DNA from: Polyporus tsugae
Lineage: Eukaryota > Basidiomycota > Agaricomycetes > Polyporales > Polyporaceae
Length of the DNA: 64,000 nucleotides
Direction of reading: 5' to 3'
NCBI GenBank assembly: GCA_024305745.1
Contig: JAHRBS010000013.1
Span: forward strand, 62,001-126,000
The first letter of the stretch is position 1, and every line of letters starts with the position of its first letter. The position numbers and the translations under genes were made by a program. Under the pieces are notes generated by a model that searched no databases, was not told the DNA's origin, and was given only the letters and a program-made list of their open reading frames with translations. Below, piece by piece: positions 37,389 through 58,528 of the stretch.

Positions 37389-37590
37389 CGCATTCTCGAG
37401 TGGTCGTCCACGGTGGAGGACAACAACAGGTTCACGACCCGGGACACCGGATCTGGATCCGGGGACATATCGGGATACACGGTCACATGGGACGGCGCCT
37501 TCCAACGTCGACGCGTCAAGCGCCGTCCTTCAGCTTCAGCCTTCCCAACGCCTTCCCCAGCCCCGGTTTCACAGGCGATCGCAGGCGTGG

Positions 37591-37597
37591 ATTCACC
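37591..37597. repeat. Left 7 bp target-site duplication (ATTCACC)
   Basis: Direct repeat with 44,099-44,105, immediately outside the inverted termini of the 6.5 kb element. Confidence 0.75.
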
Positions 37598-38166
37598 CTA
37601 GTCTCCGTAGCCGACCATATCCTGATATAGATGACAGTCGATCTATTAGTATATGGTCTGCTCCCCTACACGTCGGTTACCCCCCCTATGACACTTGGAG
37701 ACCAGCCTTGGCGCTTAGTCAGTCGTGAACCAATCAAATTGTTTGTTGGGTCATCGTAATGACCTACATCATGTCATCAGCATTACATGTATCCCTCTGC
37801 TAGCTTGGGGCAATGTCTTACAGCTAGGAACAAAAATTGAATCCTTCCGTGCACCATGGAAAACTCGTCACACCATGCAGAGGTGGCCGAATGGACAGTA
37901 CTTCGCCAAATGTACGGAGTATTGCAAGATGAGCAAGTACACACATCTCGCGCATGCAGTGACTCGGACCTATCGCCCTTCACAACCTCAGCCACTACTA
38001 CCCTCCATCCCCTCCACCCTCGCACACCTATTCGTGAACTCAGCATCTTCAGCACGCCATCCCACCGCATGCCCCGAAACTCGAGCGAGGATGTGCAGAA
38101 TGACAGTGCGTAGGCCGATTCAAATGACATCATATAATCAAGCCTGGTATATTAAATGCCACCCGG

Positions 38167-41100
38167 ATGGCAGATGGCGAAGCTTCCGATTCCATCTTGA
38201 AGTCATCTCAAAATGCAGCGCAGGCGAGTCCAGCCAGAGAAAATCAACACATGCCTACCGAGCCTGGCCCTCAACCGCGAGGCCAAAAGCGCCCTCGCCG
38301 GCCGAAGAAGACACCAGAGGAGAAGATGGAGGCCACATTCAAATTTCTGCGGTCAATGCGTTGGTCAATCGGAGACTTCCTCTACCAAACCTTTCGGACA
38401 CACGATGAGGAGGGTGCGAGGGTCCACAGAACCGTCAGCCATGGATCATTGGTTGCCAATTTTCTCTCCGGAAACAACACGCACACAGCCATCAAAATCG
38501 TTGATTTCTGGTTGCAGGACACTGTTGGTCGTCCTACACGGACAGACCCGGAGTTCTCACATATGTACTCCCCTTCCAAACCATACCACGAGATTTCTCA
38601 TGCGCGCGTGGCAATCACAGCAATGTGCGTCCAGCTTTCGGCGAAGCAAATGCACCTCGAACGCAAACGGGCTGTCCGTGGAACAAGCGGCTTGCATGGA
38701 AGTGCCTCGGGGAAGCGTGGGCGCAAGGTGCTATCCTGGGACGATATCGGAAGCCACACCATTCGCACTGTCCAACATGTGCTAAGAAAACACCAACCAA
38801 TCACGCTGCACCTCCTCGAACAACTTGCATCACCTACAGCCTACAAAAACGAGCACGGGGTAATAGTTGTGCGCAAAACACGACCACCCAGTATCGTGAG
38901 TAAGCAGCTTGCAGTTGGACTCAATGCCCGACTCACTAAGTGTACAGGTTGCGGCGGAGGTCCTCAGCATGCTCAACTTCTCACATACGAAGTGGGCACG
39001 TCTCCTGCCAGCCGCCCGGTCTGTCCTGTTCTTCGCCTGCGGTGTACCTCGGGCAGTCTTCGACTATGCAAGTCGGATTGGGCTTTCACAGAGCTGGCAT
39101 GCGACATTCAATCTCCTTCGTCGTTTCGCCGAGAAAGATGCAGCTTACGTGAAGGAATGTGGACGCTCATTCATCCGTTGGCTCATCCTTCGCTTCGACA
39201 ACGTCCAACAGTATCTCAAGCAACGCGAGCATCGCTTCGGTCGAGAGAACACGATGAAGGTCGGCATGGCTGCATACGTCGCTGAGGCATTCGACTTCGA
39301 TCCGGACGCTGCAGACCTAGAAGATCACCTCCGGCGCGTTCGTGAGAGCAAGCGAGAAGAGCTCACAGTAGCAGAACTCACAAAGCTCGTGGACTGGGAT
39401 CACGCCGAGGTTGTTGCTGGCCTCCATTGGTTACAGGCCCTGGTCAACAATGTTCCTGCCCTTGCACACTACAAGCCAGCCGTCGCGAAGCTGTGGACCA
39501 CGGATGGAGCAAAGCTGCGCGTCCCGGACCGGAAGACGAAGATCTTCCCCTTGGGTACCAGTGCCAAGAATGAGGCCATCACAACGGAGTTGCGGGAGGG
39601 GCTGATTGATTTTCTGGAGCAGATGGGTCAGCGCGAGGAGGATTACATTCCCCGCATCATCCCTGCAGGTGGCGATGGCCTCACCTTCGAGAAGCTCGTA
39701 CAGATCAAGAACTACTTACAGTTCGAAACAGACGAGTTTCGACGCCTCGACATCCTCTGGCCATTCCTGGAGGTGTGGCATACTATTTGGACGTTCCTCA
39801 GCGCTATCTTCGAAACACACTTCGGGGACTCACTCACTCGCGACCCCTCCGCTCTCGGCCACAGTGCCACTCAAATTGATCAGAAAGCTCCTCCAAACTT
39901 GAAGAAGGTCGACTACTATCCATCGCTGCATGTCGCCCTGCTCATCCTTGATGCGCGTGTGCTTGACTGTTGGAGGTGTGTCTAAACCGGATCCGGTTCA
40001 ACAGTATGTCAGCCCTGACGTTTAGGCATGGCGGTAGAATTCGGTTGGGATGTAAGGATCTCACCACTCACTTTGCGGGTCTCGCGGCCGAGGAGAAACT
40101 GCCCACACTTGAAGAGCTCCGTGCAATCACATGCGAGCTCCATCGACGCTACTCAACTTCAAGTGCATGGGAGGCCGCAATGGCGGGCGGAGAAACAGCG
40201 AAGGCTGCAGGCTGGGCCGAGAGTAGCGTGCCATGGAGAGAGAGGGAAGGGGAGGAGCAGGTGACAGCGGGAACACACACAACCGAGGGTCCCAGTGGTG
40301 AGGCGCAGACTCGGAAGGGGCCGTCGGCGGATGGGTCCGGGGAAGACACTGATCGAGACGCTCAGGAAGACGTGCTTCCTTCGACTCCGGTCGCGGACAT
40401 GGAAGATTTGCCAGGGCATAGAACACCAGACATTGACGAGGGGGAGGAAGCAGCGGCCAAGGAGGATGGGGCTAGCGAAGGATCAGGTCCAGAGGATGCA
40501 TCGTCAGAGAGCAACTCGGACTCCGAGAGTGACAGCGAGCCGAGACTGTTCTGTGGTGACCAGACACTTGCCCAGTCGATCTCGTTCATGAGCGATGCCT
40601 TGCTCTTGCGAGACCTGTCACAGGCAGTTGCTGACGGGGATATTGGCCGTGTCTGGAATGACATGAAGGCAAGTCAGCATGTCTGCCATCCCCCCCCGCT
40701 AGCCATGAATTGACACAACACATTTCACCAGATCCTCATCTTCCGCTTTGCCGGAACAGGTCATTCAAAGTACACGACCTACCTCTTAGAGATGACGTGT
40801 ATCCTCGAGCTCGAGGCCAGTCCGGTCCTTCGGGAGACGTTCTTGAAGAACTGGCTGGTGAATCCCTCGGGCGAGCCGGGTAGACATTCAGAGGGTGACC
40901 TGGTTGGGGAACATCTCAATCTGGTGCTCGAAGAGGCATTGTCTCGGAAAGGCACAGAGTGGGATAGTCCCTTGCTGCGTGAAGTGCACGCTCCGAACGC
41001 TGCAAGGTTTTTGGACCTGAAGAATGAATGGGGGACAGGGGTTGGCCTTGCGAAGCGGAGAGGAAACCATCCGGAACCCCATAGCCGCCCCGAGATTCGC

Positions 41101-41586
41101 ACGCTGCTCCGTGCGTACCAAGAGACCGAGCTCCACTCTTTCTGCGCCGGTCGTTCATACAGTTCAAAACCTGGCAAGAATCTCATGCATGAGGGTCTGA
41201 CCAACCTCCTGGCCAAGAAATTGAGGTCGTTCTGTCAGCAGTCAACACGAGCACGGGTTCGCGCAACCGAGCACAAACGGCACCAGTCCCTGCAAGAACT
41301 GGTGGCACAGGCATTAGCGGAGGTAGATGGAGAATCGTCGGATTCCGAGTCTGACTCGAATTCAGAACGGAGTTCCCAGATGCATGGTGAGGACTCAGAG
41401 TCGAGAGAAGCAGGACCACGCCAGACAGCTTATGACATTAGATGGGAGGATGGGGAGATGATGCTCGATGAACGGGAATCATGGGACTACGACACGATTC
41501 TGGATACGTACAACGATATATATGACTCGACCGAGGAGTATGTAGAGGACGACGATGTCCATACGGAACTGGATGACGATGAGTAA
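38167..41586 (+). CDS. DUF6589-family protein (probable transposon-encoded)
   Basis: Four exons (38167-38895, 38948-39975, 40026-40668, 40732-41586) join to exactly 1,085 codons. The N-terminus has a basic stretch, RGQKRPRRPKKTPEEK. The DUF6589 core follows: FDNVQQYLKQREHRFGREN, LTVAELTKLVDWDHAEVVAG, LWTTDGAKLRVPDRKTKIF, IPAGGDGLTFEKLVQIKNYL, and FLEVWHTIWTFLSAIFETHF then LKKVDYYPSLHVALLILDARVLDCWR. Residues about 680-790 are acidic and Ser/Glu-rich, and the C-terminus is very acidic (EEYVEDDDVHTELDDDE). The third intron has a GC donor (40,669-40,670). DUF6589 proteins are abundant in Agaricomycetes and their biochemical role is unknown to me. Conserved Asp residues (GGDG, FDNVQ) could form a nuclease-type site, but that is a guess. 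The intact frame suggests a recent or active element. Confidence 0.9.
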
Positions 41587-43935
41587 CTCTATACATGTGG
41601 CGGGACATTCTCTTTATTGTGCTTCTATAAATGCCAGTGGCATGTGTGTCAGTTGTCGGAAAAGTTCCGCTATGTTGAATAACCCAATCACTCACCGAAC
41701 TGAGGCACTGTCTATTGCGTGGGCGTGGATTGATTGTTGAATTCGTGCTTGAACGTTTCCTCCCACCCTGAGATACATCCGCATCAGTGACCGACAGGGC
41801 ACCGTCGACGAGGTTCCACTCGACATTGACGGGGTCCATGTCATAATTTGCGCTAATTCTAAGTGTAAGTCCAGGATGGACCGATTCACACTCGGAGGAC
41901 GTACCTATGTTGCATCTCCGCGAGTGCATTGCCCGTAACCTCGACTTGGAAACTCACACAGCACTCCTCCAACGAGCCCGACTGCACGGCACTGAACTCA
42001 CCAGTAGGCCCTCCGGCCGTCCCTTCGCCCTTCCTCCCATTCTCCGCAGCCTTCTTCTTTGCTGCCTCCCGCCCTTTCTTCTCGGCCTGCTTCTCCCGCA
42101 TAGCCGAGAATTTCCCCCTGAGCTCGGTGATCTTCGTCCATAGAGCATCTGCATGAGGCAAGATGTAAAGGTCTTGAGCGATGACCTTGTGCAGGGTGGC
42201 CGGTGTGTCGAGCAATGCGAACTGGTCGAGGATAGCCTTGATTGTAGAGTCGGGTAGGAATAGGACAGGACTGAGTGCCCTAGCGGCCGCGGAAGTGGCG
42301 GTACTCGTGCGATATACAGATGTACGAAAGTCTTGGAGTTGTTTCGTGCCTTCCGCTCGCATTGGCCGCGTGAGACGCTGCCTACGGGGGACCGGATTCG
42401 GTGCTGTGCGTCTATGAGATTGGAGTGGCACGGCTACCTCTTCAGGTTGGCATCCGCTGCACTTGCCGCATCCATTGGGGTCGTCGGAGACCAGGGGAGA
42501 GGGGAGAGAGGAACAGCGAGGACAGGAGCAGGGAGGATCGACGAGAGGGTTGCCGTAGAGAAGGTTTTGCTCGGCAGTCACACACCGTGCGAGCATAAGC
42601 CGAGCCATATTGGTCTCCAACTGTACCGGAGCAGCCTTCTTCCCGGAAGTCTTCTTCGGCGCGTTCCCATCCACCAGGGCGCGGGCTATCTTCCATGTCT
42701 TCTTCGTTACGTACGTAATGCACCGTGCGTCTTGTACGTGGGTGGGATCTCTCCCTGGCCGGCCTTCCCACTGCACATGCTCGTCTGCTGACACAACATT
42801 CCCGAGGATTACGACGTCCGCGATGTTTGGCAAGTCGATGCCGACCATGAAGGATGCAGTAGCGACGATGATCTGTGCGCCTGGGTCATTTTGCATCAGA
42901 CGACGAGTCTCGGCATTGTAGGAAGGCCAAGACAGGGCGTTGTACATCCGCACACGCTTCGTGGGGTCCGAGCCAGGTGGGCAGCGGTGCCAAAGGTATA
43001 TGGCGACACGGAAGCCAATTGCTATTGTTCGACAGTGAATGACAGTCTTGCGGCCATCCCGAAGAACCCATTTAAGGTCTGGGAAAGACCATCCACCCAG
43101 CCCGCGCGAGAGAGTGCGAAAAATTGTCTGAACATTGGCACGAATGTTTGAGCGTCGAAGGAGGTGGAAATCTCCTTCGCGAAGACCGACAAAAGACAGG
43201 ATCGTCTTCTGCGGCAGGCCGATAAGGAGGGTTGCGGTGGTTCCGAGGAGACGCGTACCGAGGGGAAATCGAGCCCGCGCAAAGCCTAGCTGACGGAACG
43301 ACTTCCGGAAACTCTGCCCCCACGAGTATAGGAGATGGATCTCATCAATGCCCAACGCACACACGCGAGATTGAAACGCAGCATTTTGAAGGAGACCATC
43401 AAATCGGGGAGAACTCAAGAGTTCGGGTGACAAGAGAATGAGGGTGATGTCCGTGCGTGCTACAACCCACAAATCCGTCCCAGCCTTCCTGCCGTTCTCC
43501 AATGTTGTCGCATTGATGACCAGGGTGGCGAGTCCAGCTTTCTCAAAGACGGTGGCCTACTCGGGACGTCAGTAACAGCGGATGCACACAACCATAAGCA
43601 AGTACAACACATACCTGTTCCTCCTCGAGTCCATTCGTCGGATATACGATCACCATGCACGGATCTTTCGGGACCGCCGGATAACGCGATTGGCAGAGTG
43701 CGGGGTTTTTGGAAAGCTCGAGAAGCATGAGCGCATAGATCAAGTAGTAGCCGGTCTTTCCAGAGCCAGTAGCGAGTACGGCGACCAGATCTTTGCCGTC
43801 AAGCAGTTGCCCGACTCCTTCGAGTTGGTAGTCATGAGGAACATAGGGAAGTCGGGAGCGAAGTGTCTTCTTGATGAGCTCGTAGCCTTCTGGTGAAGCG
43901 AAGCGATACCGCGGCGAGGTGGCGAGCAAGGGCAT
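41438..43935 (-). CDS. RecQ-like DNA helicase of the transposon
   Basis: Exons 43935-43615, 43556-41905 and 41858 onward, stop most likely at 41438. Helicase motifs: VPHDYQLEGVGQLLDGKDL (Q motif region), ATGSGKT (residues 55-61, Walker A), DEIH (178-181, DExH box), TTATLL (motif III, about 213), IIVATASFMVGIDLPN (motif V) and QWEGRPGRD (motif VI, about 369-377). A Cys cluster CSCPRCSS...CGKCSGCQ follows and may bind zinc. Next come a Lys/Glu coiled stretch (AEKKGREAAKKKAAENGRKG) and a short third exon. It should unwind DNA 3'-5' using ATP. The last exon frame overlaps the antisense 3' end of the DUF6589 gene by about 150 bases; a further intron would shorten it, so the stop is uncertain. Starts 163 bases inside the right terminus. 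Confidence 0.88.
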
Positions 43936-44098
43936 GATGCCCAGACGGAAGGATGTTAGCGCCCTATGGCTCAGTTGAAAGTTGCGAGCGCGTTGTTTGT
44001 CTTTGTTGACGTGTAGACGTGATGAGAATCAGCATGTGACTCGGGGAGTTCCGAAGTGTCATAGGTGGGGGTAAGTGGTCTGTAGGGACCAAGACTAG

Positions 44099-44105
44099 AT
44101 TCACC
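44099..44105. repeat. Right 7 bp target-site duplication (ATTCACC)
   Basis: Direct repeat with 37,591-37,597. Immediately after it the Y1 block begins and is colinear with Y2. Confidence 0.75.
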
Positions 44106-44895
44106 CCGTCAAGTGCTCCCTCCGACCGACCTTCCGCCTCAGTCAAACTCCTTCCCCCTCGTTTTTGCCTTCAACGCTCTTCGCAACAAGTGTTTTCCCT
44201 GTCGGGATCCCTATGCGAGCCTCAAACAACGCTCACCACGGCTGCAAGTATGCCGTACAAGTCCCTCGCTCCGCATCGCTCTCACTGGCATACGCGACTT
44301 GCCTTCTCGCACCTCAGACCTCTCGCTTCCGAGTCTCGGTCTGGCCGGCGAAACGGCACAGTGCACGCCGCCGCGCTGCTCCCTTCGCCCTCTGGTGAGC
44401 CCCACTCCACCTGCCTCTGGCCATCGCGCGCTCATACCGCCTATGAACCGGGTGTTCTCAAACGTCCACTCAAGCACCGGAGACCCGTGCGCGTGGACAA
44501 CCATCAAGACAACTGTCAGCACTGTGTAGAGCACAGGAAGCGTCGATGTTGCGAACGCACGGGTACCTCTGTGATCGAGCGAGGTACGTGAAATCTCGGC
44601 TCTCTGGCGCCACCGAGCCTCGTACTGACCCGCTTAACCTCCAGCATCACAAAACCAGCATGCGGGCCGGTGGAGATGCAAACACGGCCCACGGCCCCGT
44701 CCGCTGCAACATGCTGCCTCCCCCGCTCTGGATACGAACGGCACGGACTTAAAGCGACACCCTGGAGACATTATGTACGTGCCTCCCCACAATGGGGCTG
44801 GCGCGTCCGAGGGGTGAAACCCTTTGTAACGTTCGCGGCCGGTTTGCCAGCGAACAGCGCTCGTTCAGCTGAAAACCGGCGCAACTGTCGATTTC

Positions 44896-55921: not shown

Positions 55922-58528
55922 CGCATTCTCGAGTGGTCGTCCACGGCGGAGGACAACCACACGTTCGCGACCCGGGACACCGGATCTGGATCCGGGGACA
56001 TATCGGGATACACGGTCACATGGGACGGCGCCTTCCAACGTCGACGCGTCAAGCGCCGTCCTTCAGCTTCAGCCTTGCCAACGCCTTCCCCAGCCCCGGT
56101 TTCACAGGCGATCGCAGGCGTGGATAGTGCTCCCTCCGACCGACCTTCCGCCTCTGTCAGACTCTTTCCCCCTCATGTTCGCCTTCGACGCTCTTCCGAA
56201 CAATTATTTTTGCCTGTCGGGATCCCTATGCGAGCCTCAAACCACGCTCACCACGGCTGCAAGTATGCCGTACAAGTTCCTCGCTCCGCACTGCTCTCAC
56301 TGGCATACGCGACTCGCCTTCTCGCACCTCAGACCTCTCGCTTCCGAGTCTCGGTCTGGCCGGCGAAACGGCACAGTGCGCGCCGCCGCGCTGCTCCCTT
56401 CGCCCTCTGGTGAGCCCCACTCCACCTCCCTCTGGCCATCGCGCGTTCACACCGCCTATGAACCGGGTGTTCTCAAACGTCCACTCAGGTACAGGAGACA
56501 CGTGAACAGCCATCAAGACGGTTGTCAGCGCTGTGCAGAGCACGGGAAGCGTCGATGTTGCGCACGCACGGGTACCTCTGTAATCGTGCGAGGTACGTGA
56601 AATCTCGGCTCTCTGGCGCCACCGAGCCTCGTACTGACCCGCCTAACCTCCAGCATCACAAAACCAGCAACCTGGACACAACGCAGGCCGGTGGAGATGC
56701 GAACACCGCCCACGGCCCCGTCCGCTGGAACATGTCGCCTCCCCCGCTCTGGATACGAACGGCACGGCCTCAAAGCGACGGCGCCCTGGACGCATTATGT
56801 ACGTGCCTCCCCACAATCGAGCGGGTGGGCCCCAGGGGTGGAACCCTTTGTAACGTTCACGGCCGGTTTGCCAGCGAACAGCGCTCGTTCTGAAAACCGG
56901 CGACATCGTCGATTTCATGGGCACGCCGCCACCAGTCACCCGCTGCCGCCCCGCCACGACCAGGTTGTCTGGAAGGTATGTCCGCGGCGTTCATCTGGGC
57001 CTGAGCGAACCTCACAAAACTGCCAGGACGATCGTGGAAGCCGTGCACGATATTCTGCGGGACCCTTTGCCCGCAATGCGCCGGTAAGTCGTCTGCTACT
57101 CGTCTCCAAGGCGCCGCACCGTGTTCTAACCGACTCAATATAGTCTCTGATCACTTACGCAATGAACACCGACGGCTCTGCGAAGATCCAACCCCGGAAA
57201 TCGCGTTTGAGGCGATTTCGTCGCACTCAAAAAGTGCGGTCGGTAAACCACACTCCCCACGCCCGGTGCGGCCGGACAACCACTTCAAACGACGTGTATG
57301 GCTCTTGGATGGGCCGTACAGACGGGTTTGGACGGCCTCAATCGCGGTCTCACAATCGCTTCAAACGACCGCCGTAGACGCGCCGACACCGGGACCAGCA
57401 TATCTCCTCCCAAACACATCGGGGCGACGCAGCAGCTGGTCGACCCTGCCGTCCGTAGCTCTGATGGTCAGGATGCCGTGGATGGTGGCCGGCGAGAGCG
57501 AGGACCGCACCGCCGCCAGCATAAGTGTCCCAGAGTGATACCAGGACACGCGGCGCGCGACAAGTGTTCGTCGGCCGTCAGCCACGACGACGGCCGCCAG
57601 ACAACATGCCGGCGCGATGATAGGGACACCCGACGAGTCCGAAGTCACTGCCGTCGCGTCGGGATTGGCGGTGTGGGGAACAACCGGTCGTGTCTCGTGC
57701 GCGCCGGGTGAGTAAACTGCGAATATCTCCCGTGTCGGGTGTCAGAACTCATGTTACCACCCTCAGGACGACCAGCGACTATCTCCGCATCCAACGCCGC
57801 CGGTTTGGGGACGACGGTACAAGATCTCAAGAATCGCGTTTTCGAACACGCTCGGAAGGCGCGGTCAGCAAACCCGACTCCCCCACGCTCGGTACGGCCG
57901 ACCGAACACTTCCAATGAAGTGTCTAGTCCATGGACGTGCCGTACGAACGGTTCTGGACCGCCAGAGATGCCTTCTCAAGTTCGGCATGTAGGCGGGCAA
58001 TGGGACGCGCACCGAAGACCGGAGCCTGTCGGTCACGACAGCGATGCCGGCTGCCCTCGACATCTCAGACATGAACGAGGCAAGCACGGACGACGTCCGT
58101 GGAGAACAGCCGTCGCCACGCCCGGAGCAGCCGTCGATGAAGAGACGGTTTACATATCGTCGACGCGGGGTGAGTAAATGTAAATGGCACTTAACTCCCG
58201 CGCCGTGCGGCAGAGCGCATGCTGACAACTCGTACAACAGTCTGTGGTCACTTCCGTAACGAACACTGCCGGTTTGGCGAAGATCCACCGCGATTCAACA
58301 AATTGCGATCAGCGCAATTTCGATGCACTCGGAGAGCGCGGCCAGCGAACTCGGGCCCACGCGCTCCAAGCTGCCGGAGGAACGCTTCGAACGAAATGCC
58401 CGGTGCTCAGCGGCACCATCCGGACGATCTGCCCCGGCCGGCGGACGTACCCCGCCATCCACGCAGGCTGGCGGGTGAGTGGGAGACACGCCACCCCATT
58501 CGATTCTACGCCGGCTACGTCGACAGGA

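Follow-up and report, generated by a model that had tools for sequence, protein, structure and literature searches.

What mobilises a block of fungal DNA that pairs a gene of the DUF6589 family with a helicase gene, and why does one end of that block recur in the genome so often without the other? The locus that raises these questions lies in Polyporus tsugae, within a stretch of 64,000 nucleotides that we call the window (contig JAHRBS010000013.1 of assembly GCA_024305745.1, forward strand; C2:62001-126000 in our contig numbering). All counts given here come from this single genome (43.2 Mb, 18 contigs). Judged from its sequence, the interval 37599-44097 of the window is a genuine mobile DNA transposon carrying a DUF6589 gene and a RecQ-like helicase gene. 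We consider it fairly probable that this is an AcademH-type DNA transposon with DUF6589 as its DDE (aspartate, aspartate, glutamate) transposase. More tentatively, we speculate that the transposase-helicase pair repeatedly integrates a one-ended hairpin module of 22-63 bp, in which the hairpin would serve as a surrogate second end.

The boundaries of the element are fixed by its relatives. When the left 303 bp of the window element were compared with the genome by BLAST, 38 places matched, of which 29 begin at query base 2, with TAGTCT. The element is therefore 37599-44097 and its target duplication 9 bp. An earlier note on this DNA had described inverted ends CTAGTCT/AGACTAG between 7-bp direct repeats ATTCACC. 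The ends are indeed inverted, but the true terminus lies one base further in; the flanking repeat is likewise present on both sides, but a 7-bp duplication is rejected, since the termini of other copies give 9 bp. The subterminal inverted repeat and the two intact convergent genes reported to fill the interval are both there: the repeat is CCTATGACACTT, with TTACCCCC adjoining it, and both genes are open.

37599..44097, + strand: complete DUF6589 and helicase transposon, 6499 bp, ends TAGTCT...AGACTA, terminus set by other copies
37590..37598: 9-bp target duplication GATTCACCC, left copy
44098..44106: 9-bp target duplication GATTCACCC, right copy
37599..37616, + strand: left terminus TAGTCTCCGTAGCCGACC, found at 83 genomic places at ≤1 mismatch
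37613..37658, + strand: subterminal hairpin GACCATAT...ATATGGTC, inner stem ATAGAT/ATCTAT; the solo insertions described below stop inside or at it
37685..37696, + strand: subterminal inverted repeat CCTATGACACTT, left copy
44054..44065, - strand: subterminal inverted repeat, right copy
38167..41586, + strand: DUF6589 gene, 1084 amino acids; exons 38167-38895, 38948-39975, 40026-40668 and 40732-41586 (predicted borders)
39197, 39674 and 40789: candidate DDE residues D327, D486 and E820 of the DUF6589 protein
41886..43935, - strand: RecQ-like superfamily 2 (SF2) helicase gene, 663 amino acids; exons 43935-43615 and 43556-41886 (predicted borders)

The predicted DUF6589 protein, whose gene model requires a GC donor at its last intron, matches the Pfam family DUF6589 with an E value of 2e-120. 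Ganoderma sinense provides its closest homologue (65% identity); all 36 matches are in mushroom-forming fungi, which we take to be Agaricomycetes. The predicted helicase, whose gene may hold an additional intron near its 3′ end, matches DEAD (E 5e-12), while Helicase_C stays under the cut-off (20.5 vs 23.5 bits); among PDB sequences its top matches are RecQ1 and RecQ. A Pfam scan of these two predicted proteins found no nuclease family at E ≤ 1.

Which of the two proteins would cut DNA? The structure model of a DUF6589 homologue has an RNase H/DDE-type fold, the outcome that the earlier note had proposed to look for. Solved structures listed as nearest to it are those of the Hermes, P-element and RAG1/Transib transposases; over the aligned rows identity is 5-11%. 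Because of this transposase-like predicted fold and the conserved D, D and E found in DUF6589 proteins, we infer that DUF6589 is very probably the transposase of the element, with a catalytic role. The helicase pairing, the exact duplications and the predicted fold all favour the earlier suggestion of a transposase or mobility factor. That DUF6589 is instead an accessory protein, with the cutting done by another enzyme, seems improbable. The fold matches are only moderate, which lends that idea some weight against a catalytic DUF6589; its predicted fold and conserved triad tell against it, as does a helicase whose similarity is limited to SF2/RecQ.

The association of the two genes extends beyond the window. 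Searching the genome for DUF6589 gave 17 matches at nine loci; a helicase match lies near eight of them, convergent in every case, so DUF6589 does sit regularly beside a helicase, as had been suggested. A genome search with the window helicase gave clear partners on C2, C5 and C13, and C3:0.83M matched weakly. A second query, made up of helicase pieces from the C3 element, added partners at C3:0.83M, C15, C6, C1:4.65M and C3:2.14M, two of them weak (C1:4.65M, E 2e-11, 25% identity; C3:2.14M, E 3e-6, 23% identity). A helicase-free DUF6589 lineage was considered and rejected once this second query had matched beside five loci. The DUF6589 locus on C14 has no helicase at the sensitivity of these two queries.

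Six elements could be located with both genes and both ends, and five of these have exact target duplications, again of 9 bp and not the 7 bp once expected. Both termini were recovered at other elements; DUF6589 elements use more than one family of termini: TAGTCT.. and CAGGCTCC.. are the two among those located. The second family is represented by the elements at C3:0.83M and on C15, which are 6346 bp long and 97.7% identical, have ends CAGGCTCC...GGAGCCTG, and lie within exact 9-bp duplications CCGGAGGGC and GGAGTAACG. The C6 element (141983-148040) has a perfect inverted repeat of at least 60 bp and the duplication GTCACGCGT; that on C13 has GGTCGAGTG. The C5 element has both ends and both genes and no target duplication. 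At the C3:2.13M locus (the C3:2.14M partner above) ends were not found in the sequence stretches examined; at C1:4.64M (C1:4.65M above) and C14 a duplication scan within the first stretches, with no dedicated end search, found none. The genome pattern search showed no burst of solo insertions for the CAGGCTCC family. At C1:5600818-5601750 a pair of oppositely oriented CAGGCTCCGTCCCACCGCT matches, separated by about 0.93 kb, perhaps represents a non-autonomous relative of it.

Non-autonomous copies of about 1 kb with both ends number nine. Four have exact 9-bp duplications (C14, C15, C2:3.06M and C9). Copy L030 (C1:2.14M) is flanked by a duplication of 8 bp, which extends to 9 should the terminal A be shared, and in that of L045 seven of the nine bases agree; no duplication accompanies L040 or the duplicated L023/L024. 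L022 (C1:5494594-5497738) is a composite of this kind, with an inverted solo left end directly after its right border. Over its outer 303 + 298 bp the C14 copy is listed as 100% identical to the window element (bit scores slightly under the self-match), a near-identity that speaks for recent movement. Related copies with duplications of their own thus show that the element is mobile.

Further helicases were seen in the course of these searches. Those at C7:636288-637418 and C13:1393418-1394548 are 43% identical to the window helicase, with no DUF6589 match adjoining. Five RecQ-like matches with near-identical scores (C1:4996816, C5:2120961, C7:4007075, C9:3280755 and C11:2453796), three of them within 17 kb of a contig end, resemble telomere-linked helicases. 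Three of these five have a left end of a ~1-kb derivative of the element at a distance of about 15 kb.

The left end has a distribution of its own. Against the 83 occurrences of the 18-base terminus, a reversed control gave 0. We read 81 distinct terminus sites, a set that includes two-mismatch sites and a few segmental duplicates, some of the 83 places being unread or identical. A site was called a solo insertion where the 9 bp preceding the terminus recur downstream, distances of 19-89 bp being scanned. By this measure 30 of the 81 sites are insertions of 22-63 bp inside 9-bp duplications, 23 of which are exact; random positions in the same loci gave 9 exact repeats in 4500 and 74 in 4500 at ≤1 mismatch. 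An exact 9-bp repeat abuts the terminus at 23 of 81 sites, compared with 0-5 at eight shifted 9-mer positions. The insertions have a fixed left end, the subterminal hairpin in part or in whole, and a ragged right end that differs between copies of the same subfamily (e.g. L038, L039, L041 and L075). The right terminus AGACTA is absent from all 30. When 39 sites were scanned out to 1.4 kb, exact repeats of at least 9 bp occurred only at ≤63 bp, at 466 bp (L081) and at about 1 kb. L081 (C6:1471762) has the solo layout with another small inverted-repeat element (GAATGGCCCAGCGCACTTT ends) nested in it, the outer 9-bp duplication being exact. Among the sites read, solo insertions stand at 30 and two-ended copies of the family at 12. 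Ordinary two-ended cut-and-paste does not account for them.

The right end behaves differently. BLAST with the right end, which remnants shorter than about 30 bp could escape, gave 10 matches; nine are right ends, of which eight belong to copies that also have a left end, and for the ninth (C1:338341) no partner was found. A pattern search gave 14 matches, against five in the reversed control; nine of the 14 are in copies with a left end, and those at C3:987772, C8 and C17 are not among the sites read. A 16-base match on C7, a candidate solo right end, was taken as chance, with no other end or duplication in 1.5 kb. Within reach of these searches, therefore, the excess is one of left ends. The ragged ends show an excess of TA: it is the last dinucleotide, as in the complete element, in 13 of the 24 scorable solo insertions of at least 49 bp, compared with 23% of steps in arm sequence drawn from the insertions themselves (p 0.0009). 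Separately, four terminus-like matches on one strand of C13 (393424-427248), spaced about 11.2-11.3 kb, suggest a large tandem array.

Base-pair changes give good, though not final, evidence for the hairpin. An alignment of seven left ends, hand-chosen from different subfamilies and related to one another, has a consensus fold with an outer and an inner stem in which 93.8% of cells pair; in five of 16 pairs, one or more of the sequences have both partners altered. Its covariation score is 0.277, compared with 0.098 in shuffles (0/500 reaching it) and ≤0.068 when slid. Two further measures, the both-side changes (41/500 shuffles) and the further pair types (116/500), are not distinctive.

How might such pieces arise? 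In normal movement, DUF6589 would bind both ends, cut, and join them to the target with a 9-bp stagger, the helicase assisting. Probable tasks of the RecQ-like helicase are to open up the ends or the subterminal hairpin, or to power strand displacement. For the solo insertions we tentatively favour a pseudo-end (one-ended) route, in which a true left end would be brought together by the complex with a degenerate partner end lying within the hairpin, frequently at TA. The product would be a hairpin-sized piece with a normal 9-bp duplication. Were the hairpin, maintained by compensatory changes, to act as a surrogate second end in this way, the left end by itself would be a mobile unit, more numerous than the two-ended copies of its family. 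The genome sequence itself shows where the element begins and ends, its duplications, the pairing of the genes, the non-autonomous copies, the solo insertions and the base-pair changes in the hairpin.

Two other origins have to be weighed. Rather unlikely, in our view, is that the insertions are excision remnants, in which gap repair copied a sister left end and stopped at the hairpin, the break then being sealed against the right duplication. Such an origin would account for the exactness of the duplications, for the constant left end and for the ragged right end limited by the hairpin; bases that to the eye seem gained or lost close to some right junctions fit as well, and the ~1-kb copies, the C14 copy among them, show that internal loss happens. 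Somewhat less likely again is that they are self-standing elements of 50-60 bp, akin to miniature inverted-repeat transposable elements (MITEs) and mobilised in trans. Like MITEs they are short, non-autonomous and flanked by target duplications, and several subfamilies (e.g. those with the CCAGATATAG hairpin and with CCATGATAAATCATGG) are represented at the sites read by more than one tiny copy but by none that is longer. These points speak for the two rivals. However, repair from the right side would leave right-end remnants, yet BLAST, which could miss those under about 30 bp, found one partnerless right end; repair also predicts broad lengths, whereas the scanned sites fall into the few size classes given above, with the 466-bp case nested; and the TA excess at solo right ends is a further point against it. 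MITE-like elements, for their part, would have an inverted right terminus, which the tiny insertions lack, and copies of one subfamily stop at different bases.

An origin as introners, that is, as new introns, is very improbable. Introners with duplications of 3-9 bp are described in a passage of PMC9860276, and the duplications here, together with an intron-like length of about 50-63 bp, would speak for such an origin over a pseudo-end. A donor-like GTRNG and a YAG suitably placed on one strand were present in only two of the 30 insertions by a crude test, and we rejected the idea as without support. The pseudo-end route remains the reading that we put forward, tentatively.

The window itself offers a view of the locus without the element.

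56104..56145, + strand: element-free paralogous site of tandem unit 2; 11 bp absent at the junction

Tandem units occupy 33296-64000, starting near 33.3 k, 51.8 k and 63.85 k and being 85-100% alike in most repeat families; the transposon sits in the first. In unit 2 the flanks do occur without the element, as the earlier note had it, but not as a clean empty site: the junction reads ...GCGTGGAT directly followed by AGTGCTCC..., where GTGGATTCACCCCGTCAAGTGC would be expected, so that 11 bp are missing, most of the target included. Unit 2 therefore shows that element-free flanks exist, and not a pristine pre-insertion site.

These observations bear on a protein family and on a mode of movement. 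DUF6589, so far a mushroom protein family named only as unknown and without mention in the literature searched, gains a likely function as a transposase. A profile search gave at least 110 matches, every one annotated with a DUF6589 domain. The family is tied to helicase-encoding DNA transposons whose precise termini can be used for annotation. Further, with the solo hairpin insertions one-ended transposition can be put to the test in a eukaryote, and they suggest ways in which transposition could be given another outcome by a partner helicase and a hairpin at the terminus. Tiny hairpin insertions of this kind were not found described in the literature searched on one-ended transposition, introners and Academ, which is not proof of their absence from print.

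Among known systems, hAT (Hermes), the P element and RAG1/Transib supply the nearest solved folds to the DUF6589 model, but they differ in the partner helicase and in the length of the duplication. AcademH transposons were reportedly described by Kojima in 2020, and the nuclease of AcademX is of the XPG type. The window element encodes an SF2 helicase and lies within a 9-bp duplication. Passages of PMC10045372 describe AcademH as helicase-encoding with a target duplication of 9 or 10 bp; AcademX, by the same account, encodes a nuclease and duplicates 3 or 4 bp. AcademH occurs in Basidiomycota, as here, at low copy number according to a passage of PMC10799480. Because of the helicase and the 9-bp duplication, the window element very probably belongs to AcademH, matched by description. 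It differs from AcademX in duplication length and in having no nuclease match in its two predicted proteins, and from Kyakuja/Dileera/Zisupton (KDZ) elements, for which a passage of PMC12730594 gives 7-8 bp, in duplication length. Helicase and duplication thus point to a known lineage; in the parts of the AcademH literature searched, no account of a solo left-end hairpin insertion was found.

The closest parallels to that insertion lie elsewhere. The bacterial Tn21 is said to undergo one-ended transposition with variable endpoints (Avila and colleagues, in 1988). The variable endpoints are shared; the element here is fungal, and its 22-63 bp inserts are limited by a hairpin. Single-ended transposition has also been reported for piggyBac, although the authors state, in a passage of PMC3952818, that true single-ended events were not convincingly demonstrated. 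There too one end alone would be mobilised; that work used plasmid assays, whereas in P. tsugae the insertions are tiny, genomic and bounded by a hairpin.
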